64,000 bases of DNA from Thermotoga maritima MSB8 (GTDB lineage: Bacteria; Thermotogota; Thermotogae; Thermotogales; Thermotogaceae). Under the pieces are notes generated by a model. That model was given only the letters and a program-made list of their open reading frames with translations. It ran no database searches and had not been told where the DNA came from. The position numbers and the translations under genes are program-made. Positions 5,915-24,077 of this stretch are shown here, piece by piece. Position 1 is the stretch's first letter, and every line of letters begins with the position of its first letter. The stretch covers positions 1,068,465 to 1,132,464 of the forward strand of contig NC_000853.1 in the NCBI RefSeq assembly GCF_000008545.1. The letters are read 5' to 3'.

Positions 5915-7069
5915 TTAATCCTCTAAGGCTCTGTCCGGAGCGACATCTTCTCCTTCCCATACCTTTTTATTCGTCCATTTCTTGCAGGGATCTCTCCAAA
6001 AGGGGTCTGAGGTGGGAAGTCCGAGAGGCAGAAAGACCGTTGTACACAGATACAGACTGCCTGTTGTGATGTACTCCTCACCGAGTGAGGGTTGAGAACC
6101 GATAACACCAATTTTCAACCAGCCGTTTTCATCGAACGTCGAGGGATTCTCAAAAATCCTTCTGAGAACTGCGGTGAGCGCACACCTGACCTGAGCTGGA
6201 GAAAGACTCGCTGGAAGAAGGTGAAGAAGTGACAATTGGCTCAAAAGATGAAAGACCGCCGTTCTGTAGGTTATCGATCTACCGATGATGGGAAAAGTTC
6301 CTTCAGGGGATATCATTCTCTCGAGAACAACGGCATACCTCTGAGCCCGCCTCAATACTTTCACGTACAGTTCTTTCCATTCTGTCTTTTCCTCGGAAAT
6401 AATCCTCAGCACGTCTATCGTCATCGGATAAATAACGAAACTGTTGTAATAGTCCCACCTGAAAAAAGGACCATCACCGTAAGCTCCATCTCCTTTGTAC
6501 CAGCTTTCTACATTTTTCAATATCAAATCGACTTTCGTGCTGTCCCATTCTTCCCCTGCGAAGAAGAAAAAAGTCTCAATCATGGCGGAAAACAAAAGCC
6601 AGTTGGAAAAATAAGGTTCTATCTTTCTTGTTGCCTTCAATTCTCTTATCAATCTTTTCTTTGTAGAAACATCGAGATCTTCCCAGAGAACCTTAGGAGC
6701 CCTCAATATAGCCTCTACAAGAAAAGCAGCATCAACCAGTGGCTGTCTTCCTTCTTTGAAGTTCATGTAATCTTTGCAGTTTGGATTCGTTGCAACATCG
6801 AGGGATTTGACTGCAAATTCTGATAATCGGGTTGCGATCTTTCTCTCCTCTGGATCCGTGCTCGGACTTTCCCTGTTCAATTCAAGAAACGGGGAGATTC
6901 CGCAGAAGATTCTCCCCAGAAGTTCTAGATGTGTGAACTTTCTCCTTTCTTCGCTCTTCTTTCCCTCCACAGGCATCGATTTCTTCAAGCGATCCGATGC
7001 GCAAAGTTCAAGAGGCATTTCACAAATTTTTCGAAGAAGAGAAATCCAGTAGCGCCGAACATCAGTCAT
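5915..7069 (-). CDS. DUF2264 protein, probable glycosidase of the uronide locus
   Basis: The 384-residue protein has the features of DUF2264: an (alpha/alpha)-barrel type sequence with YFSNWLLFSAMIE, WYKGDGAYGDGPFFRWDYYNS and the late GRSITYRTAVFH. To my knowledge this family has been linked to beta-glucuronidase activity in a recent CAZy family (GH154); treat that as unverified. No signal peptide is seen, so it would act on imported oligosaccharides. It directly follows the GH2 beta-glucuronidase. An in-frame TTG at 7078 overlaps that gene's stop, but the ATG at 7069 has better-spaced GTGAGGT upstream. Confidence 0.75.
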   Translation of the reverse strand: MTDVRRYWISLLRKICEMPLELCASDRLKKSMPVEGKKSEERRKFTHLELLGRIFCGISPFLELNRESPSTDPEERKIATRLSEFAVKSLDVATNPNCKDYMNFKEGRQPLVDAAFLVEAILRAPKVLWEDLDVSTKKRLIRELKATRKIEPYFSNWLLFSAMIETFFFFAGEEWDSTKVDLILKNVESWYKGDGAYGDGPFFRWDYYNSFVIYPMTIDVLRIISEEKTEWKELYVKVLRRAQRYAVVLERMISPEGTFPIIGRSITYRTAVFHLLSQLSLLHLLPASLSPAQVRCALTAVLRRIFENPSTFDENGWLKIGVIGSQPSLGEEYITTGSLYLCTTVFLPLGLPTSDPFWRDPCKKWTNKKVWEGEDVAPDRALED

Positions 7070-12997: not shown

Positions 12998-14965
12998 TCA
13001 CTCAAAGTAAAATTGTTCAGGCCTGAAATTCTTCGGACTTCTTATCAGCGGAAAATCCCAGAGTAGACCTTGCGGAACATTTTTGAAATTCTCTTTCACC
13101 ACGATAGGCTGGGGCAGAGCTCCTACAAAACCCACCATCCAAATATTTTTCTTATGAAGGTTGATTATTTCTTTCATTAGTTCATCTCGTTTTTCTGGGG
13201 CCACTTCTTTGACAATTTGATCCCATATTTCATATAGTTTCCACATATCGGTTCCCTCTTCTGGTGGCATACCAGTTTTTTTACCACTGTTGTACCACTG
13301 CCAGGTAAGAGGCGCCCATTGACTACCCAAAATGTGGGCAGGATCGCCAACAGGATCTATGTTCCTGTCGAATTCCCATACTCCTATTTGCAGTTGACCC
13401 GCTTCCAATCTTGTAACATACAATGATCTATCTATAGGTTTCAAAATAACACTTATTCCAACTTTCTCAAGATAAGATTTGACCATTTCCATTGTTTTTT
13501 CTCTAGTTTGGGAAGGAGTTGTGTATTCAATAACAATTTCCAATTTCTTACCATCTGGCCTTAACCTATAGGTACGAGAAGGATTCCATTTGAGCCCCAT
13601 TTCATCTAGTAGTTGATTCGCTCTCTCTGGATTATATTCGGCAAATGCTTTTTCCCACTCTGGATCGTAATATTTTACGCCTTTTACGAAAGAAGCTTGT
13701 CGCGGTTCACCGAGCCCTTGGTAGACCAATTGCCATATTTCTTCCCTGTTTACAGCCAAGGAAATAGCTTGCCTGAATCTAGGATCCCTTAATATTTCAC
13801 CTATAACAGGATCGTCAGTGTAGTTTTGATTTATCATGAGGGTATCGGCACTACCAACGGCCTGCCTTGCAAGGATCAATTTGTAACCGCCTTTTTCTCT
13901 ATTAGCTGCAAGTATTGAATAATCTGCGACTGTTAAATGTCTCCCCTGCATATCTATTTCCCCAGATATAGCTTTCATCAACAACATCTGTTGATTTTCA
14001 ACATAATGGAATATGATTCTATCGATGTACGGTAATTGATTTCCTTCAGGATCAACTTTGAAGTAATACGGATTTCTTTCAAGTATTAACGCTCTCTCTG
14101 AAGATTCTTTAGACAATTTCCAGGGGAAAAGAATCGGGAGGTCGGGATTAACCAGCCAAGAATTGGTTTGCAAGCATTTGTCACTAACGAATTGATACCA
14201 AGAACTATATCCATTTTCCTTTGCTATTTTTTCTGCTTGTTCTAAACCAATGTACTTTGGATGAAATTTTTTTATGTAATGTGAAGGAACAACGAATTCA
14301 ATTCCCGCTCTTCCTCCATCACCAGCTAGAGCAAATGGAAATAGTGGATAAGGCTCTTCGAAAATCACTTTGAAAGTGTAATCATCGACAATCTCCAATT
14401 TGAAAACTTTCCCACCTGGCTGGAAAACTGAAGGTATGGAAGGAGTAAGTGATTCGTTAAGTAAAATGTCATGATACCAGAATTCAACATCTTTCGTGGT
14501 AACAGGTTCTCCATCAGACCACTTCAATCCTCTTCTAATTCTCATTGTATATTCTCTACCGTCTTTAGACACTTCTAAGCTCTCAAGAACATCAGGCAAC
14601 AGGCTTTTACCCGCTTTGTCTGAAATTACCATAAACTCGTAACAAATACGACCAGCGTTCCATTCATCTGACAATCCGTACCATGCTCTGTTCCAGGTAC
14701 CGCCATATTTTCCAATGCTTTCATACGGCGTTACCACAACCGGATTCTTCGGAAGCCTTTCCTCCACAGGTGGAAGCAGTCCTTTCTCAACCATCTCTTT
14801 CAGCATCGGTGATTCGTTGAATTTCGTGATCTTCTTACCCGTCAGACGTTCGTAATCAGTGAGATTGTAATACTCACCGGGAACGATTTCGTTGAGTCCA
14901 ATGGCAAGAATCTGAGCTGTGAAGATTACTACAAGAAGACTCCACAGAACTTTCCTGAACATCAT
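12998..14965 (-). CDS. Extracellular solute-binding protein family 5
   Basis: The 655-residue protein starts with a signal peptide (RKVLWSLLVVIFTAQILA) and shows the family 5 (Opp/Dpp-type) pattern. There are a GTWNRAWYGLSD entry segment near residue 90, the DGREYTMRIRRGLKWSDGEPVT block near residue 160, and the FRQAISLAVNREEIWQLVYQG block past the middle. It would capture the oligosaccharide outside the inner membrane and pass it to the Opp-like pore. The N-terminal ~90 codons and the flanks are normal in GC, while most of the body is AT-rich (25-40% by hand count in sampled lines). ATG 14965 and ATG 14962 are both possible starts. Confidence 0.88.
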   Translation of the reverse strand: MMFRKVLWSLLVVIFTAQILAIGLNEIVPGEYYNLTDYERLTGKKITKFNESPMLKEMVEKGLLPPVEERLPKNPVVVTPYESIGKYGGTWNRAWYGLSDEWNAGRICYEFMVISDKAGKSLLPDVLESLEVSKDGREYTMRIRRGLKWSDGEPVTTKDVEFWYHDILLNESLTPSIPSVFQPGGKVFKLEIVDDYTFKVIFEEPYPLFPFALAGDGGRAGIEFVVPSHYIKKFHPKYIGLEQAEKIAKENGYSSWYQFVSDKCLQTNSWLVNPDLPILFPWKLSKESSERALILERNPYYFKVDPEGNQLPYIDRIIFHYVENQQMLLMKAISGEIDMQGRHLTVADYSILAANREKGGYKLILARQAVGSADTLMINQNYTDDPVIGEILRDPRFRQAISLAVNREEIWQLVYQGLGEPRQASFVKGVKYYDPEWEKAFAEYNPERANQLLDEMGLKWNPSRTYRLRPDGKKLEIVIEYTTPSQTREKTMEMVKSYLEKVGISVILKPIDRSLYVTRLEAGQLQIGVWEFDRNIDPVGDPAHILGSQWAPLTWQWYNSGKKTGMPPEEGTDMWKLYEIWDQIVKEVAPEKRDELMKEIINLHKKNIWMVGFVGALPQPIVVKENFKNVPQGLLWDFPLIRSPKNFRPEQFYFE

Positions 14966-15208: not shown

Positions 15209-16609
15209 TCAACTGCCGTAATGCTTCTTCATTTCCTCGTTGAAGGGGAGGTTAAGGATATCATCAATAACAGCGACGGCCTGTTCGTAGGATCTGGTTC
15301 TTGGATCCCTGACGAGGATCTCCTCCAGAACCCTCCTGTCACCAGATATGAACGCCTCAAGTGCCCACTCCATCCTGAGTATCCTCGGAAGTAAGTAGAA
15401 CTTCTTGATCCTGTCTGTAAGATCAGGCTCTATCTTCTCCGGATGTATCCCCTCTTTATCAACTACCACCGGCACCTCCACCATTACATCGTCCGGTATT
15501 CCCTTTATCACCCCTCTGTTCTCTACGTTCAATACAAGCCTCGCCTTCTTGTCATTCACAAGCGCGTTGATGAAAGGTATATGCTGTTCTACACTCTCAC
15601 TGCCTGTTGTGAACACCTCAGGCCACACCTTCGTCAGCTCTATCGTCGGATCTTTCTCCACTTCTTTCGCAAGTTCCATCAGCCTCTTCCTCTGCTCCCT
15701 CAAACTCTCGTAGAACTTCGGCCTTTCCACTTCGTTGTCTATCCCTCCAAACTTCCCGTACCATCTCTTCTTCGTCTCAAGATCGTAGTGGTATTTCCAT
15801 GTCCCACTCCTCACCGTGTCCCCTATCGGGTACATCCCGTAGAACCTGTACATGTCTATCGCTGCAGGTGAAAAGTCCACATCCCATGGATTCTTCGGCT
15901 CCCATCGCGATGCGTTCTCCTCTATCCATTCGTCCAGCTTCGGATAGAGATCTTCCCCTCTGCATCTGAACCTGTTCATCCATATCGCATGGTTCACCCC
16001 TGCTACCTGCCAGTCTAATTCCTCTGGCTCCACACCGAGTACTTTCGCAAGGTGGAACACGTGCGCATACCCGTGGCAGAAACCCACTATCTTCGCCTTC
16101 GTAAGCCTCTTCACAAGTTGTGTGATCTCAAAAACAGGATTGGCCGTCTGCAGTATCCACGCATTCGGTGCTATCTTCTCCACTGCCTTTGCTATATCAA
16201 GGCTCATCTTCAGGTGGTTGTAGTTGCTGAGTGTGTAGTAGTCCGAGACCATGTTCAGCTCCTGGCTGTCTATCCCTCTGTAGTAGCCATGTCTCTCCCC
16301 TACTTCCCTCATGATCTCGTAGTGTACGTATCCGTCTTCGTGCCCTGGTGCCCTGTAGAGGGCTGTGTTGATGACAAAATCTGCCCCTTCAAGTGCCTCC
16401 TCAAGGCTTGTCGTCTGTTCCACTGTGTACTCTGCATTCAGTTCCCTGAGGTACTTTGTGACGAGAATGTACGTTGCTTTCAACCTTTCTTCGTCGATGT
16501 CCATCAGTACCAGTCTTGACCCATACAAATCCGGTGTCTTCGCCAGGTCCCCTACCAGCTTGATCGTGTACCTCACACTCCCCGCTCCTACAAATACTAT
16601 GGTAGGCAT
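15209..16609 (-). CDS. Glycoside hydrolase family 4, probable alpha-glucuronidase
   Basis: A 466-residue GH4 enzyme with the NAD loop VGAGSVRYT at the N terminus, the metal-binding CHG motif (Cys178-Gly180, CHGYAHV) and His207 in AGVNHAIW. GH4 enzymes use NAD+, Mn2+ and a redox elimination-addition mechanism. The residue after CH tells substrate class: CHE/CHS for alpha-glucosidases and galactosidases, CHG as in Thermotoga alpha-glucuronidases. I therefore favour alpha-glucuronidase over the common label alpha-glucosidase. It is 24 bases downstream of the DeoR-type regulator in one operon. Neighbours also process uronides. Confidence 0.82.
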   Translation of the reverse strand: MPTIVFVGAGSVRYTIKLVGDLAKTPDLYGSRLVLMDIDEERLKATYILVTKYLRELNAEYTVEQTTSLEEALEGADFVINTALYRAPGHEDGYVHYEIMREVGERHGYYRGIDSQELNMVSDYYTLSNYNHLKMSLDIAKAVEKIAPNAWILQTANPVFEITQLVKRLTKAKIVGFCHGYAHVFHLAKVLGVEPEELDWQVAGVNHAIWMNRFRCRGEDLYPKLDEWIEENASRWEPKNPWDVDFSPAAIDMYRFYGMYPIGDTVRSGTWKYHYDLETKKRWYGKFGGIDNEVERPKFYESLREQRKRLMELAKEVEKDPTIELTKVWPEVFTTGSESVEQHIPFINALVNDKKARLVLNVENRGVIKGIPDDVMVEVPVVVDKEGIHPEKIEPDLTDRIKKFYLLPRILRMEWALEAFISGDRRVLEEILVRDPRTRSYEQAVAVIDDILNLPFNEEMKKHYGS

Positions 16610-16633: not shown

Positions 16634-17392
16634 TCAATAAACAATTTCCACACCTTTTTCCCTGAATATTTCATATTGATTTTCTGGAGGTTTTCTGTCG
16701 GTGATGAGATGATCGATTTTTTCTGCGGGTATCAGATGTGCCAGCGATCTTTTTCCTATTTTGCTGAAGTCAGCGAGTACGAAGATCTCTTCCGCTCTTT
16801 CCACGAAAATTCCTTTTATTCCCATTTCCATGGTGTTTATTTCGTAGGTTCCTTCTTCCGCAGTCACTCCTCTACAGGAGACAAAGGCTTTTTTCACAGA
16901 GAATTTTTTTCCACACTCTATCGTCAGAGAGCCTTCCACAGCCAGGTTCTCCGGATTCACCTTTCCTGTGAGCAGAACAACGCTTATATCGGAGTTCTTC
17001 GAGAGCTCCATTGCAGTGAGCAGGTTGTTTGTGATGACATGAACGGACTTTTGAGACGAGGCCAGGTGTTTGGCAAAGATATGCGCAGTGGTGCTTGCGT
17101 CCAGAAAGATAATGTCTCCATCTTCAACGAAGTTCAACGCAAGTTGGGCAATTTTTTCCTTTGCTTCTCTGTTTATTGAGAGCCGTTTCATGAAGTCTGT
17201 TTCCTTTTCAAAATAATTCACCTTCCTTATGCCACCATGTACTTTTTTTACCAAATTCCTTTTCACCAGTTCTGCCACGTCTCTTCTCACGGTGATCATC
17301 GAAACGCCGAGTTGTTCCTGAAGATCCTTCATGCTGATGAAACCGTTTCTGTCAACGATATCGAGGATTTCCTTCAATCTTTCCTCTTTCAT
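16634..17392 (-). CDS. DeoR-family transcriptional repressor of the rhamnose/glucuronide locus
   Basis: The 252-residue protein has an N-terminal DeoR winged helix (about residues 5-58, with LGVSMITVRRDVAEL as recognition region and the family mark HGG) and a C-terminal sugar-phosphate sensor domain (DASTTAHIFAKHL, VITNNLLTAMEL, DFSKIGKRS). Such regulators release DNA when they bind a phosphorylated sugar, here plausibly a rhamnulose phosphate. The frame opens 12 codons earlier, but GGAAAGGAGGTG sits just before ATG 17392. It is divergent from the rhamnose genes, with an inverted repeat between, and is expected to act on both sides and on the transporter operon. Confidence 0.87.
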   Translation of the reverse strand: MKEERLKEILDIVDRNGFISMKDLQEQLGVSMITVRRDVAELVKRNLVKKVHGGIRKVNYFEKETDFMKRLSINREAKEKIAQLALNFVEDGDIIFLDASTTAHIFAKHLASSQKSVHVITNNLLTAMELSKNSDISVVLLTGKVNPENLAVEGSLTIECGKKFSVKKAFVSCRGVTAEEGTYEINTMEMGIKGIFVERAEEIFVLADFSKIGKRSLAHLIPAEKIDHLITDRKPPENQYEIFREKGVEIVY

Positions 17393-17423
17393 ATCAACAC
17401 CTCCTTTCCTTTCGAAAAATTTT

Positions 17424-17464
17424 ATCACAAATATCGTTGACTTTTGTGATTAATTTATGATAAC
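17424..17464. promoter_or_regulatory. Divergent control region with inverted repeat, rhamnose genes
   Basis: ATCACAAA (17424-17431) and TTTGTGAT (17443-17450) form a perfect 8-base inverted repeat with an 11-base spacer. TTGACT (17437-17442) lies inside it and could be the -35 of a plus-strand promoter, with GATAAC (17459-17464) as a poor -10 at 16 bases. A protein bound to the repeat would cover the -35. It lies between the divergent regulator and ASRT-like genes, so it is the best candidate operator for the DeoR-type protein. Confidence 0.55.
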
Positions 17465-17499
17465 TTTATGTATGAATTCGTACCCAGAGGTGATGAATA

Positions 17500-17844
17500 A
17501 TGAACGGTGCCAGAAAATGGTTCTTTCCAGATGGTTACATTCCAAACGGCAAAAGAGGATATCTTGTTTCTCATGAATCTCTGTGTATCATGAATACGGG
17601 TGATGAAACAGCAAAAATAAGGATCACGTTCCTCTTCGAAGACTCTAAACCAGTTGTTCATGAAGTAGAAATTTCACCAATGAAGAGTTTGCATCTGAGA
17701 CTGGACAAACTTGGTATACCAAAATGTAAGCCTTACAGCATAATGGCGGAAAGCAACGTACCTGTTGTCATGCAGCTTTCACGTCTCGACGTTGGAAAAA
17801 ACCACTACACTCTTATGACAACCATCGGTTACTGGGAGGAGTGA
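17500..17844 (+). CDS. ASRT-family (sensory rhodopsin transducer-like) small-molecule-binding protein
   Basis: This 114-residue protein opens with MNGARKWFFPDGYIPNGKRG and has an all-beta pattern ending DVGKNHYTLMTTIGYW. It matches the family named after the Anabaena sensory rhodopsin transducer (PF07100). No rhodopsin is near; in many bacteria these genes lie in sugar operons. The family has been proposed to be a small-molecule, possibly carbohydrate, binding domain. It is the first gene after the divergent promoter and its stop overlaps the region just before rhaA, so it is co-expressed with rhamnose catabolism. A ligand-sensing or sugar-handling role is inference. Confidence 0.8.
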   Translation: MNGARKWFFPDGYIPNGKRGYLVSHESLCIMNTGDETAKIRITFLFEDSKPVVHEVEISPMKSLHLRLDKLGIPKCKPYSIMAESNVPVVMQLSRLDVGKNHYTLMTTIGYWEE

Positions 17845-17849
17845 TAAAC

Positions 17850-18992
17850 ATGGAAAGGATTTTTAAGGAGCTGGACGAGTTGAAGTTCGAACTTCCCTCC
17901 TGGGCGTTCAGCGATGCAGGAACAAGGTTTGCTGTCTTCCACGAAGAAGGAGCCGCCCGGAACGTTTTTGAAAGGATAGAAGACGCTGCTCTCGTTCATC
18001 GTCTCACAGGTTGTTGTCCTTCCGTTGCCCTTCACATTCCCTGGGACAAAGTGGAAAACTGGGAGGAACTGAGAGAGTTTGCTGAAGAGAAAGGCTTGAA
18101 GATAGGTGCCATCAACCCGAATCTGTTTCAGGATCCTGATTATAAGTACGGAAGCCTCACGAATCCCAGCGAAAAGATCAGAAAAAAAGCGATCGCTCAC
18201 GTAATGGAGTGCGTGGACATAGCCGAAAAAACTGGTTCAAAGGTGATCAGTCTGTGGCTCGCGGACGGAACGGACTATCCTGGTCAGGACGATTTCCGCT
18301 CCAGGAAGAAAAGGCTCGAAGAGTCCCTGAGGTACATCTACGAGAACATGCCGGCTGATATGTACCTCCTCATAGAGTACAAGTTCTTCGAGCCCGCTTT
18401 TTATCACACTGACATTCCAGACTGGGGAATGAGCTATCTCCTTTCGGAAAAATTGGGAGAACGTGCTCTTGTACTCGTCGACCTGGGGCATCATCCCCAG
18501 GGAACGAACATAGAGTACATCGTTGCAACACTTCTGTCTGAGAAGAAACTCGGTGGTTTTCACCTGAACAACAGGAAATACGCAGATGACGATCTCACGA
18601 TCGCCTCCATAAATCCGTACGAGGTGTTTTTGATCTTCAAGGAGATCGTCTTTGCGAAGAGAGATCCTGAACTCTCTGATTCTGCAAAGAAGGTGGTTCT
18701 CATGTTCGATCAGGCCCACATCACAAAACCGAAGATCCTCGCGATGATACAATCTGTTTTGATCGCCCAGGAACTTTTCACAAAGGCACTTCTCATAGAT
18801 GAAAATCGACTGAGAGAGGCTCAGAAAAACTACGACGTGGTTGAAGCAGAAGAAATTCTTCTCGATGCGTTTCGAACAGACGTAAGGCCGATTCTGAGGG
18901 AGTACAGAAGGCAGAAAGGTCTTCCGGAGGATCCGCTCAGAGTCTTTCGGGAAGAAGACTACATGGAAAAAAGAAGGAGAGAGAGACGATGA
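17850..18992 (+). CDS. rhaA: L-rhamnose isomerase
   Basis: The 380-residue protein is a xylose-isomerase-like TIM barrel of the shorter Gram-positive/Streptomyces-type rhamnose isomerase group. Visible active-site segments are SLWLADGTDYPGQDD, MYLLIEYKFFEP (metal Glu), VLVDLGHHPQGTN (metal Asp) and LGGFHLNNRKYADDD (metal His and Asp). It converts L-rhamnose to L-rhamnulose. The ATG at 17850 was preferred to an in-frame GTG at 17841 because GGGAGGAG is 8 bases before it. It is followed by rhaD with a four-base overlap. Confidence 0.92.
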   Translation: MERIFKELDELKFELPSWAFSDAGTRFAVFHEEGAARNVFERIEDAALVHRLTGCCPSVALHIPWDKVENWEELREFAEEKGLKIGAINPNLFQDPDYKYGSLTNPSEKIRKKAIAHVMECVDIAEKTGSKVISLWLADGTDYPGQDDFRSRKKRLEESLRYIYENMPADMYLLIEYKFFEPAFYHTDIPDWGMSYLLSEKLGERALVLVDLGHHPQGTNIEYIVATLLSEKKLGGFHLNNRKYADDDLTIASINPYEVFLIFKEIVFAKRDPELSDSAKKVVLMFDQAHITKPKILAMIQSVLIAQELFTKALLIDENRLREAQKNYDVVEAEEILLDAFRTDVRPILREYRRQKGLPEDPLRVFREEDYMEKRRRERR

Positions 18993-19699
18993 GAGAGACG
19001 ATAAGAGAGATTCAAAAAGTAGCTTACTGGCTTGCCATAAAGGGCCTTTCCGAGGCGAACGCAGGGAACATCTCTGTCAGACTGGATGAAAGACCAGAAG
19101 GATACGAGGTCAAGAGTGTGAACGAATACGGGTTCGATTACGACGGTCCCGAGATGTACCTTCTGATCACGGCAACGGGCTCGAGAATGAGAGAAGTCTA
19201 CGAAGACGACAGCAAGATCTGTCTTCTTCACGTCCTTCCGGGGAAACACTACGAAATTCTCCACGGAAACGGAAAACCCACCAGTGAGTTTCCCACACAC
19301 CTCATGATCCACGCAAAATTCAAGGAGATGAATCCGGAAAAGAAAGCCATCGTTCACACTCATCCTCTGAACCTGCTCACTCTGATGAACTTAGAGGAAT
19401 TCCAGGAGCTTCTTCCGAAGATGATGAAGATTCATCCGGAAGTTTTGATCTTTTTCCCACAGGGAATCTCCGTCGTCGAGTTCGAAAAGCCAGGCAGTGT
19501 GGAACTCGGCCTGAAGACGGTGGAGAAGTCAGAAGGGAAAGATGCAGTTCTCTGGGACAAGCACGGTGTTGTGGCTTTCGGAAAAGATGTCGCAGAAGCG
19601 TACGACAGGGTCGAGATCCTGGAAAAAGCGGCGGAGATCCTTTTGAGAGTGCTCAGCCTCGGAAGAAATCCCACGGGTGTTCCGGAGGGATGGCTGTGA
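18989..19699 (+). CDS. rhaD: Rhamnulose-1-phosphate aldolase (class II)
   Basis: At 236 residues this is a zinc-dependent class II aldolase of the RhaD/FucA/AraD family. It has LSEANAGNISVRL near residue 22, LITATGSRMREV near residue 60, the zinc ligands HTHP near residue 125, and the late DKHGVVAFGKDVAEAYDRVE. It splits L-rhamnulose-1-phosphate to dihydroxyacetone phosphate and L-lactaldehyde. It overlaps rhaA by four bases and rhaB by ten. Confidence 0.93.
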   Translation: MRETIREIQKVAYWLAIKGLSEANAGNISVRLDERPEGYEVKSVNEYGFDYDGPEMYLLITATGSRMREVYEDDSKICLLHVLPGKHYEILHGNGKPTSEFPTHLMIHAKFKEMNPEKKAIVHTHPLNLLTLMNLEEFQELLPKMMKIHPEVLIFFPQGISVVEFEKPGSVELGLKTVEKSEGKDAVLWDKHGVVAFGKDVAEAYDRVEILEKAAEILLRVLSLGRNPTGVPEGWL

Positions 19700-21120
19700 A
19701 GGTCCTCTCGATCGATCTTGGAGCAACGAACGGAAAGATCTACGAGGTGGAGTTGAAAGACAGGTTGACGGTGAAAGAAATAAAGAGATTCAGAACAGAA
19801 GGAACCTTTCTTCCTGGGAAGGATAGAGAACACTTCGTGTGGAATCTTCCCGGGTTCTACGAGGAGATAAAGGGTGTTCTTGAGGCCTCTGACGCACAAT
19901 CCGTTGGGGTGGATACATGGGGTGTGGATTTTGCCTTACTCGACGAAAACGGAAGACTCGTATCTCTTCCCTATCACTACAGAGATGTGAGAACGAAGGG
20001 AGTCATGAAAAAGGCCTTCGAAGTGGTTCCAAAAGATGAGATATTCCAGAGAACGGGTATACAGTTCATGGAGATAAACACGCTCTATCAGCTGTATTCC
20101 ATGGTGCTCTCGAACGATCCGTTCTTGAAGACGACAAAGCACCTTCTGATGATCCCCGACGTGTTCAACTTCTGGCTTTCTGGAGAGATGGTGAGTGAGT
20201 ACACCATCGCGAGCACTTCTCAGTGCTACAGCGTGCCGGATGGGGAATGGGCGTACGACCTTCTCGAAAAACTCTCCATTCCCACTGAGATCTTTCCAAA
20301 GGTGGTTCCGCCGGGTACCATCCTGGGAAAATGCAGAGTGAAAAAAGGTATAAACGTGATCGCCACCGCCTGTCACGACACCGCTTCCGCTGTTGTTGCT
20401 GTACCGCTTGAAGGGGAAGGAATCTACATCAGCTCTGGAACGTGGTTTCTTGTGGGAACGGAGCTGGAAAGACCACTTCTGAGCAAAGAGGCACTGGAGA
20501 GAAATTTCACGAACGAAGGTGGGTACGGGAAGATCAGGTTTCTAAAAAACGCAACGGGCATGTGGCTTCTGGAAGAGTGTAACAGAATCTGGAAGAAGGA
20601 TTATTCGGAGATCATCGAATCGGTCAGGAATGTCCCTGGTTTCCAGGCGTTTCTCGATCCCGATAGAGAAGAGTTTCTCCACCCTGGAAACATGCCGGAG
20701 AGGATCAGAAATTATCTTGAAAGAACGGGCCAGAAAATCCTGGAGAGGATCGGAGAAATCTCCCGGCTCATCTTCGAATCCCTTGCGTTCAACTGCAGAT
20801 GGATCGTGGAGCAGATCAAAGAACTCACCGGCAAAAGATACGGGAAAATCCACGTGGTGGGTGGAGCTGTGAGAAACGATCTTTTGATGAGTTTCATAGC
20901 CAGTGCGACGGGGAAGACGGTGGTGGCGGGTCCTGTGGACGCCACTCCCATCGGGAACGCACTCGTTCAGCTGATCACCCTGGGAGCGATAGCAAACATC
21001 AACGAAGCCAGAAAGATCGTGAAAGAATCCTTCGAATTGAAAACGTTCGAGCCGAAGAATCCGGAGTTGTGGAGCGAAAAGTACGAAGAATGGAGAAGGT
21101 ACAAGGGGATGAGAGTGTGA
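19690..21120 (+). CDS. rhaB: Rhamnulokinase (FGGY family)
   Basis: A 476-residue sugar kinase with the N-terminal ATP loop SIDLGATNGKIYEVE, VGVDTWGVDFALLDENG near residue 78, CHDTASAVVAVP near residue 228, and the C-terminal VVGGAVRNDLLMSFIASATG. These are standard for RhaB in the FGGY superfamily. It phosphorylates L-rhamnulose before the aldolase step. The order isomerase, aldolase, kinase with overlaps gives coupled translation. Confidence 0.94.
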   Translation: MAVKVLSIDLGATNGKIYEVELKDRLTVKEIKRFRTEGTFLPGKDREHFVWNLPGFYEEIKGVLEASDAQSVGVDTWGVDFALLDENGRLVSLPYHYRDVRTKGVMKKAFEVVPKDEIFQRTGIQFMEINTLYQLYSMVLSNDPFLKTTKHLLMIPDVFNFWLSGEMVSEYTIASTSQCYSVPDGEWAYDLLEKLSIPTEIFPKVVPPGTILGKCRVKKGINVIATACHDTASAVVAVPLEGEGIYISSGTWFLVGTELERPLLSKEALERNFTNEGGYGKIRFLKNATGMWLLEECNRIWKKDYSEIIESVRNVPGFQAFLDPDREEFLHPGNMPERIRNYLERTGQKILERIGEISRLIFESLAFNCRWIVEQIKELTGKRYGKIHVVGGAVRNDLLMSFIASATGKTVVAGPVDATPIGNALVQLITLGAIANINEARKIVKESFELKTFEPKNPELWSEKYEEWRRYKGMRV

Positions 21121-24077
21121 ACCTGAAGGATCTGGAAAACCCTGGAGTGTGGTACAGACCCGCTCCCTTCTGGAGCTGGAACGATAAGTTGTGCGAGGAG
21201 GAACTTCTAAGGCAGATAGACGAAATGTATGAGAAGGGCTACGGAGGCTTCTTCATGCACTCGAGAGTGGGGCTTGTAACGGAATACCTCTCTGAGGAGT
21301 GGATGAGACTCGTAAGAAGCTGTGCAGAACACGCCAGAAAACTCGGGATGCTCGCCTGGCTCTACGATGAGGACAAATGGCCTTCCGGATTCGCTGGAGG
21401 AATCGTGCCACTCGAAAAACCGGAACACAGGCACAAATACCTCACACTCTTGAAAAAGGATCAGATCAAACCAGAAGATGAGATCCTGAAAAAGATAGAA
21501 AGAGACGGCGAAGAATTCTACGTGGTAAAACGCGTTATGAAGCTTGGTGATCCGTGGTTCAACGGAACCTGCTACGTCGATCTGCTCTCAAGAGAGACCA
21601 CAGAGGCGTTTCTCAGATCGACACACGAGAGATACAAAAAATCGTGCGGTGATCTTTTCAGAGTCTCCATCCCCGGGATCTTCACCGATGAACCCACCTA
21701 TCTGAGAGTGCATCACCCTAAAGAAACCACACTCCCCTGGACAGAACGATTTCCAGAGGAGTTTTTGAGGCGAAAGGGATACGACATCAGAGACCACTTA
21801 GAAGAACTCTTCTTCAACGTGAAGGACTACATGAAGGTGAGATACGATTTCTTCGATGTTGCGACGAGTCTGTTCATCGAAAACTTCACGATCCCGTACG
21901 CGAAGTGGTGTGAAGAAAACGGCATCTTCATGACGGGACACTACATGGCAGAAGATACACTCAGAGGACAGGTGGAGTGGATAGGTGCCGCGATGCCACA
22001 CTACGAATACATGCAGATACCGGGAATAGACAAACTCGCCAGACACCTGGAACAGGTGGTCACGATAAAGCAGGTTTCATCGGCGGCAGAGCAGTTAGGG
22101 AAGAAATGGGTGCTCTGCGAAACGTTCGGTACAACGGGTCAGCACGTGAGTTTTCTGCACAGAAAATGGATAGCGGACTGGCAGGCGGTTCTCGGTGTCA
22201 CGTACATAAACCCGCATCTCAGTCTTTACTCGATGAGAGGAGAGAGAAAGAGGGACTACCCACCGAATCTCTTCTATCAACAGCCTTGGTGGAAGAACGA
22301 AAGATTCCTGTCGGATTACTTTGCAAGACTGAACCACATCGTCACACAGGGAAAGAGAGAGGTCAAAGTGCTCATGATACATCCCATCTCCTCAGCGTGG
22401 TGTGTGTATTCTAAGTTCGATGACGAGATCGATAAGCTCAACGAGCTCTTCGATACGATCACAAAGGAACTCGTTGCGAACAAGATAGACTTCCACTTCG
22501 GCGACGAGATGATCCTCTCAAAACATGGAAGAGTGAAAGAGGCAAAACTGAGAGTAGGAGAGTACGAATACGAAGTCGTGGTGCTGCCACCGCTCCTGAA
22601 TCTGAAAAGTTCTACTGTGGAACTTTTGAACTCACTGGCAGAAAACGGTGGTAAGGTCTTTGTTTTGAAGGATTTCAGGTACGGCAGGTTCTTCCCGGAA
22701 AGAGTGGAAGGAAAGAAGGGAAGAATCGAATTCCTCAAAAAGGCTCGTGTTTTTGAAACGCTCGAAGATCTCATCGAAGAACTCAAACCCTTCTTTTCTG
22801 TGGATGTTCTGGATACGAAAACGAAAGAGAATGCAAAAGCGGTGATCGCGCAGAAGAGAGTGCTGGAAGACGGATCTTATCTTCTCTTTCTTGCGAACAC
22901 GGACATCGACCGGGAAGTGCACTGCCATCTGGAACTGAAGGAAAAGAGAAAACACACGTACGCGATAGACCTGTTCAATTTCAAATTGGTGGAGCTGAAG
23001 GAAAACGAGTTTGTCATGTTCCCAGCGTCGAGTGTTTGTATCTGGGTAACGGACGAGGAGGTTCCTGCAGAGGATGAGAAAGTGGTTTCAACAGGAGTTC
23101 TTCTGGAGAAAGAATTCGATTTCGAGACGGCACTGAACGACTTTGAAGTGAAGATGAACTCTTTCAACGTTCTTCCAGTGGACAGGGTGGAGTATTTTGA
23201 AGCGGGTGGAAGGGTTTTCAGGAACGAGTTCGTCTCGAAGATCTGGTACGAGTTCTACAGATTACCGGATGGTACACCGTTCAGGGTGGAGTACTCTTTC
23301 GAGGTCAGGAAAAAGCCTCAAAAACTCTTTCTCGTCGTTGAGTGCGCGGAAAATCTTGACAGAATCACGGTGAACGGTCGAGAGGTGAGGTACGAAAGAA
23401 AAAGCTGCATTTTCAACGAGGAACAGAATTTCCTGGATGTGAACTTTGGAAAGATGGAGATCACAGATCTCGTCAGAGAAGGAAAGAACACGGTTGTTCT
23501 GGAGGGAAGAAAAGAAAACAACATCACAGGCCCGGGGTGTCACACGAGGGTGAAAGATCCAGAGAATCACAGGCCAACAGAGGTGGAGACGATATATCTT
23601 GTGGGAGATTTTTCACTTGTGAACGTGGACGAGACGAGGTACGTGATCGATGCACCCAAGATACCGGATCACAGGGACATCACACGGGATGGGTACCCGT
23701 TCTATGTGGGATCCTTCACGCTCAAAAAGATATTTGAGTGTAAAAAAGACCCGGGGAAAAGATACTTCCTCAAGCTGAACGGTGTGGAGGCGGCCTCGGT
23801 CGAGGTGATCCTGAACGGGAAGTTCCTGGGCGTTCTTTTCTGGAGACCTTTCATGATAGATATTACAGATGCTCTGAGAAACGGAAAAAACGAACTCCAA
23901 CTCGTCCTCACAAACACACTGTTCAACCTCATAGAGGCGAACCACAAGGCAGACGTTCTCGAGGAGACCTTCAGAAGACCGAAGAGCTTCATAGATTTCG
24001 AGCACCACACGGACAGATACATCCTGCTGCCCTTCGGCCTGGAAAACGTCGCCGTTCTCAGCTCTTCTTCACGATGA
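21117..24077 (+). CDS. Large GH106-like alpha-L-rhamnosidase
   Basis: The protein is 986 residues. It begins PGVWYRPAPFWSWNDKL, then YGGFFMHSRVGL, LAWLYDEDKWPSGFAGG and, further on, FRVSIPGIFTDEPTYLR and MTGHYMAEDTL. These fit the N-terminal barrel of GH106-type alpha-L-rhamnosidases. Beta-rich domains follow; the last (about 790-970, with NGREVRYE and VILNGKFLG) resembles a galactose-binding module. No signal peptide, so it trims imported oligosaccharides to free L-rhamnose. The frame is open 318 bases further upstream inside rhaB, but GTG 21117 is preceded by AAGGGG and overlaps the rhaB stop. Family call is good, exact linkage unknown. Confidence 0.82.
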   Translation: MNLKDLENPGVWYRPAPFWSWNDKLCEEELLRQIDEMYEKGYGGFFMHSRVGLVTEYLSEEWMRLVRSCAEHARKLGMLAWLYDEDKWPSGFAGGIVPLEKPEHRHKYLTLLKKDQIKPEDEILKKIERDGEEFYVVKRVMKLGDPWFNGTCYVDLLSRETTEAFLRSTHERYKKSCGDLFRVSIPGIFTDEPTYLRVHHPKETTLPWTERFPEEFLRRKGYDIRDHLEELFFNVKDYMKVRYDFFDVATSLFIENFTIPYAKWCEENGIFMTGHYMAEDTLRGQVEWIGAAMPHYEYMQIPGIDKLARHLEQVVTIKQVSSAAEQLGKKWVLCETFGTTGQHVSFLHRKWIADWQAVLGVTYINPHLSLYSMRGERKRDYPPNLFYQQPWWKNERFLSDYFARLNHIVTQGKREVKVLMIHPISSAWCVYSKFDDEIDKLNELFDTITKELVANKIDFHFGDEMILSKHGRVKEAKLRVGEYEYEVVVLPPLLNLKSSTVELLNSLAENGGKVFVLKDFRYGRFFPERVEGKKGRIEFLKKARVFETLEDLIEELKPFFSVDVLDTKTKENAKAVIAQKRVLEDGSYLLFLANTDIDREVHCHLELKEKRKHTYAIDLFNFKLVELKENEFVMFPASSVCIWVTDEEVPAEDEKVVSTGVLLEKEFDFETALNDFEVKMNSFNVLPVDRVEYFEAGGRVFRNEFVSKIWYEFYRLPDGTPFRVEYSFEVRKKPQKLFLVVECAENLDRITVNGREVRYERKSCIFNEEQNFLDVNFGKMEITDLVREGKNTVVLEGRKENNITGPGCHTRVKDPENHRPTEVETIYLVGDFSLVNVDETRYVIDAPKIPDHRDITRDGYPFYVGSFTLKKIFECKKDPGKRYFLKLNGVEAASVEVILNGKFLGVLFWRPFMIDITDALRNGKNELQLVLTNTLFNLIEANHKADVLEETFRRPKSFIDFEHHTDRYILLPFGLENVAVLSSSSR

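Follow-up and report, generated by a model that had tools for sequence, protein, structure and literature searches.

The open reading frame at the head of the rhamnose operon of Thermotoga maritima MSB8 encodes TM1070, a member of the ASRT family (PF07100), and genes of this family recur beside isomerase and transporter genes in distant bacterial lineages. Our leading reading, a tentative one held at less than even odds, is that TM1070 is a mutarotase-like handler of rhamnose and a non-homologous stand-in for RhaM/RhaU. The window analysed here is a stretch of 64,000 nucleotides, positions 1068465-1132464 of the 1.86 Mb genome. The identification itself is accurate and ordinary: the protein is known, it has already been crystallised, and hypotheses on its role have been published, with a prediction dating from 2009. 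The family name denotes a light-sensing role, which cannot hold for members from genomes that lack a rhodopsin. The genomes of organisms such as T. maritima encode no rhodopsin homologue (De Souza 2009, PMC2739507).

In a Pfam profile search the product scored 131.6 bits on PF07100 (cut-off 25, E 1.8e-38), and beyond this family no Pfam match, PF05336 included, was found at E up to 0.01. The product is also identical in 114/114 residues to PDB entry 1nc7, 'hypothetical protein TM1070'. An artefact or chance reading frame at 17500-17844 is ruled out by these two matches, and the membership in the ASRT family given in the original prediction, together with its coordinates, is exact. Residues 24-32 read SHESLCIMN, an instance of the SHExxChhN signature, and both W7 and N32 are present. 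Among 91 non-redundant homologues W7 and R95 are invariant (91/91), H25 and E26 are each found in 86, H65 in 72 and C29 in 71. The strongly conserved polar positions of the family are 7, 26, 32, 62, 67, 92, 95 and 97, with position 62 being lysine in TM1070 and arginine in most of the homologues.

The predicted model of TM1070 (pLDDT 96.2), which replaced a poor single-sequence model (pLDDT 66.9), consists of strands and one short helix. It aligns to 1nc7 with a Z of 21.7 and an rmsd of 0.8, giving it the ASRT beta-sandwich fold, and to the Anabaena ASRT structures 2ii7, 2ii8, 2ii9 and 2iia with Z of 13.9 to 14.4. Beyond the ASRT entries the fold matches are weak and belong to mixed beta-sandwich proteins; the top ones are the carbohydrate-binding modules 5fu2 and 5aos (Z 7.0 and 6.8), which is below the level that would imply kinship. 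Among the matches listed there is no mutarotase and no solved enzyme that is close in fold. The crystal structure was described as a tetramer having a cleft in which 1,2-ethanediol contacts H25 and C29, and W7 and N32 were assigned structural roles (De Souza 2009, PMC2739507).

The TM1070 gene heads a tight operon in which it is followed by isomerase, aldolase, kinase and GH106-like genes, all on the forward strand and either 5 bases apart or overlapping (Table 1). Its position ahead of rhaA, as originally predicted, is confirmed, since the gene ends 5 bases before the RhaI-type isomerase, a gap that assumes the ATG at 17850 as the start whereas the mechanical reading frame starts at GTG 17841. 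The isomerase also matches the L-rhamnose isomerase structures 3m0y/2hcv at E about 1e-89. Two other gene boundaries in the table are choices of ours or of the scan: 21051 is the start of the scan inside the reading frame 20799-24077 and is an approximate gene start for the GH106-like gene, and ATG 17392 was taken as the start of the regulator, for which the listed frame begins at GTG 17428.

Table 1. Features of the rhamnose operon and its surroundings in the window, and loci with an M24-ASRT gene pair.
Feature	Position	Strand	Evidence and remarks
Solute-binding protein SBP_bac_5, neighbouring transporter genes	12998..14965	-	PF00496
GH4-family glycosidase adjoining the divergent regulator	15209..16609	-	PF02056/PF11975
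Divergent DeoR-family regulator (RhaR)	16634..17392	-	PF00455 + PF08220
Perfect inverted repeat ATCACAAA-N11-TTTGTGAT	17424..17450	.	between the divergent DeoR regulator and the ASRT gene
ASRT/PF07100 protein TM1070	17500..17844	+	114 aa; ATG at 17500, stop ends 17844
L-rhamnose isomerase, RhaI type	17850..18992	+	TIGR02635 RhaI_grampos 696.6 bits, cut-off 531
Rhamnulose-1-phosphate aldolase (class II)	18989..19699	+	PF00596; NF002963 276.7 bits, over cut-off
Rhamnulokinase-like FGGY	19690..21120	+	PF00370/PF02782; TIGR02627 best but below cut-off, 432 vs 528 bits
GH106-like alpha-L-rhamnosidase, fifth gene	21051..24077	+	PF17132; rhaC of rhaMADBC by order
M24-ASRT loci			L153, L173, L174, L176-L178, L182, L183, L188, L189, L191, L195-L199

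The inverted repeat between the regulator and TM1070 is a candidate RhaR operator, judged from the sequence. It is the sole match in the window at up to 3 mismatches, where 0.45 would be expected, and it has 0 mismatches. The window and four of the five other loci of the genus Thermotoga have exact arms; in the fifth (L132) a single arm base differs, and in L024 the repeat is degraded. A promoter scan found no sigma-70-like site in 17300-17600 by its own rule. Rodionov 2013 (PMC3750489) names the operon rhaMADBC and reports that it is induced 27-37-fold on rhamnose. From the gene order we infer that rhaM in this name is TM1070; rhaM is the gene name of a rhamnose mutarotase, and the word 'mutarotase' is absent from the part of the text of PMC3750489 available to us. 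Both the mutarotase name in that paper and the sensor idea of De Souza 2009 (PMC2739507) have thus been published as predictions. Among open-licence papers we found no functional experiment on the sugar-operon type of ASRT.

The neighbours of PF07100 members were surveyed in a total of 105 distinct loci, the window included, by counting the genes within six of ASRT. A second ASRT copy in two loci gives 107 rows, and L133-L135 were dropped before counting as copies of L023, L025 and L026. Two of the genome samples behind the survey overlap. Genes were taken from our own simple longest-ORF caller, grouped into BLAST clusters and given Pfam labels, with some names taken from plasmid records; with such a caller some of the neighbours listed are spurious frames. 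For the Actinomycetota sample the loci are a part of the places over the PF07100 cut-off, with weak matches in long frames left out. These weak matches (E above about 1e-7, mostly to profile positions 27-99) lie in frames of ~250-2800 aa in many genomes of that sample, often several in a genome, and may represent either divergent, repeated domains of an ASRAH-like kind or false matches.

ABC ATPase genes were the most frequent neighbours with 23 loci, a count that includes other ABC ATPases (one of them in the window) and is therefore not called CUT2-specific. They were followed by isomerase (20), BPD_transp_2 permease (17), M24-family (16), DeoR (14), class II aldolase, Peripla_BP_4 binding protein and LacI (11 each), kinase and TPP enzyme (9 each) and lactone oxidase (6) genes. 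In twelve of the twenty isomerase loci there is also a BPD_transp_2 permease or a Peripla_BP_4 binding protein. Of 13 carbohydrate families that were scored, 61 loci have one or more and 44 have none; some of the latter carry unscored glycan genes (GH42, DUF6259). The isomerase-linked loci are spread over four phyla, with 10 in the Thermotogota, 5 in the Actinomycetota, 3 in the Alphaproteobacteria and 2 in the Bacillota, and a single clade for their ASRTs is rejected (AU p 1.5e-6) on a tree of 121 columns in which long branches (L177, L172 and L127) leave single placements unsure. As they do not form one clade, either the association arose more than once or it is ancient and was lost repeatedly; in both cases it has been retained or rebuilt in distant lineages.

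Within the Thermotogota (103 genomes) ASRT was found in 11 genomes and RhaA in 21, with all 11 ASRT genomes falling within the RhaA set. The co-occurrence has a Fisher p of 1.8e-9 by genome and of 3.3e-4 by genus, the latter being the fairer figure because the genomes are related. ASRT is optional in the rhamnose clusters of this phylum, and no consistent substitute small gene was found in the ASRT-less clusters, where several contigs end early. The survey of gene neighbours that had been suggested as a check thus returned a link to sugar operons that is conserved in part of the family. The proposed role in rhamnose sensing or handling gains from this recurrence (20/105 loci with an isomerase, 17/105 with the permease, 11/11 genomes with RhaA), though 44/105 loci lack all of the scored carbohydrate families.

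In the mechanism we favour, TM1070 would be an accessory protein that serves the rhamnose pathway in the cytoplasm, and the DeoR-type regulator would presumably control its production along with that of the isomerase, aldolase and kinase. The free sugar, probably L-rhamnose, would bind in a pocket formed around H25, C29 and perhaps H65, and the likeliest job of the protein would be to make the interconversion of sugar forms faster and so provide the isomerase with the right anomer. All three residues are kept in each of the 20 isomerase-linked ASRTs. The gene also takes a familiar place: in L027 and L187 the gene order is binding protein-ATPase-permease-permease-ASRT-isomerase, and the slot held there by ASRT is, when compared by eye, the slot of RhaU in the rhamnose cluster of Rhizobium, given as rhaRSTPQUK in PMC3870299. 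RhaM/RhaU (PF05336) and TM1070 are thus both small and share the same slot of rhamnose gene clusters by eye, although they differ in that TM1070 does not match PF05336. The most widespread neighbour cluster reaches 23/105 loci, a pattern better matched by an autonomous activity than by dependence on one fixed partner protein.

Several observations speak against a mutarotase. Not all family members have the candidate acid/base residues, as the C29 and H65 frequencies reported above show, and T. maritima has a GalM-family aldose-epimerase gene elsewhere in its genome. Ten of the 21 RhaA-bearing Thermotogota (L224-L233) have neither ASRT nor RhaM, so that such a step is not needed there. Spontaneous mutarotation should moreover be fast at 80 C.

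As a proof of a mutarotase, replacement of RhaM by ASRT finds neither clear support nor refutation in the distribution of RhaM. PF05336 RhaM was found in none of the 103 Thermotogota genomes, with or without RhaA, and a phylum-wide absence provides no test of substitution. Outside the phylum, 1 of the 9 genomes whose ASRT is isomerase-linked has RhaM, compared with 11 of the other 68 ASRT genomes; this is no clear difference, and the 77 genomes do not include that of the isomerase-linked locus L030. With the single E. coli RhaM sequence as query (E 1e-3) no mutarotase was found near ASRT, and neither FucU nor RbsD (single E. coli sequences as queries) had a match in the ASRT loci; a GalM query taken from L022 had none among the reading frames of these loci. 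A profile built from 18 RhaM rows and E. coli RhaM found one match near ASRT, in L176, where a PF05336 RhaM-like gene (49.9 bits, cut-off 23.4) and an ASRT gene (244-594 and 6210-6572) lie in one same-strand cluster.

The alternative that comes closest is the non-catalytic sugar sensor argued by De Souza 2009 (PMC2739507) from the 1nc7 structure and from isomerase, aldolase and kinase neighbourhoods 'including Thermotoga', in which the tetramer would bind a sugar and tune a pathway enzyme or a transporter by protein contact. Besides this published structural and contextual argument, a sensor is suggested by pocket residues that vary with the class of neighbourhood, as would fit a binding site adapted to more than one ligand. 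Neither C29 nor H65 is kept in any of the 16 ASRTs linked to an M24-family gene; both are also replaced in 6 of the 91 other rows, five of which share a clade with 15 of the 16. H25 is replaced in 5 of the 107 rows, all of them from lactone-oxidase loci (5 of 8 such rows). The pattern suggests a pocket tuned to its pathway, albeit through few independent events on the tree, since the differences follow clades: C29 changed four times, H65 three times and H25 twice. Too few pairs were available for independent-pairs tests that set the pocket against the neighbourhood, and the structure alignment was made without L029, which has a stop inside its frame. The same clade-wise distribution weakens the case for a sensor, as does the fact that no constant partner emerges: the most frequent neighbour cluster is found in 23 loci (partners may vary or be encoded elsewhere). 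Furthermore, a DeoR-type regulator that carries a sensor domain is already present in the operon. We regard a sensor as less likely than not; the mutarotase-like reading has a slight edge over it, but the data do not discriminate between the two.

Lactone-oxidase loci also show a particular arrangement. The ASRT gene and a D-arabinono-1,4-lactone oxidase gene are tightly coupled in L012:8860-11013, L013:8980-11032, L019:7691-9387 and L020:7697-9384. The lactone oxidase gene is flanked by two ASRT paralogues on Sinorhizobium pSymB and in Natrononativus, and one of the two pSymB paralogues is without H25, C29 and H65.

An enzyme of another kind, acting on sugars or on sugar lactones and acids with the substrate set by the operon, is unlikely. 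It would suit neighbours such as the sugar-lactone oxidase, a TPP enzyme together with an enolase-superfamily enzyme, a GMC dehydrogenase and a GH15 protein, as well as the eight strongly conserved polar positions. Two of these, however, are the residues W7 and N32 that have been assigned structural roles (De Souza 2009, PMC2739507), and a close fold match to a solved enzyme is missing among the matches listed.

The Anabaena homologue belongs to the same Pfam family as TM1070 (2ii7, E 9.4e-17) and shares with it the fold and the SHE..C..N signature, but it is co-transcribed with rhodopsin (PMC2739507), whereas TM1070 lies in a rhamnose operon. That TM1070 is a DNA-binding regulator is very improbable: according to PMC8660804 Anabaena ASRT binds DNA (Kd about 10 uM), forms loops in it and increases the expression of a reporter in E. 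coli, but its contacts R109, Q110 and N113 stand opposite G99, K100 and Y103 of TM1070 (assuming a one-residue numbering offset), and the operon has a dedicated DeoR-type regulator.

In 16 of the 105 loci ASRT is preceded on its own strand by an M24-family (prolidase-like) gene, which is the immediate neighbour in fourteen of them and is separated from ASRT by one gene in the other two. These loci come from the Actinomycetota and Verrucomicrobiota samples and from one genome of the Bacillota sample. We take D209, D220, H280, E313 and E327 to be the metal ligands of the Pyrococcus prolidase 1pv9. In all 16 M24 proteins the residues opposite D209 are A, G, N or S, those opposite D220 are S, T or A and those opposite H280 are Y, C or V, whereas E313 is matched by Asp and E327 by Glu. 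From the sequences, M24 and ASRT look like a dedicated pair. De Souza 2009 (PMC2739507) does not mention the association in its main text, nor did any of the papers listed in a literature search name a rhodopsin transducer. A wider proposal would make stand-alone ASRTs a new beta-sandwich class of aldose mutarotase unrelated to RhaM, FucU/RbsD and GalM, with TM1070 as its rhamnose member, and would add an altered-pocket sister subfamily with another ligand and a prolidase-like partner of its own, in which three of the five metal ligands are gone; taken as a whole, we think this rather unlikely.

Two further neighbourhoods were observed in the survey. On a conjugative plasmid of Klebsiella pneumoniae (L021:8947-9363) the ASRT gene and its neighbours, which code for an enolase-superfamily protein, a GntR, an SDR and a sugar MFS transporter, lie between insertion sequences. 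In six genomes of the Bacillota sample (L147-L152) ASRT is followed by a GH42 gene, a radical SAM gene and DUF4130, and R67 of the ASRT protein is replaced by tryptophan.
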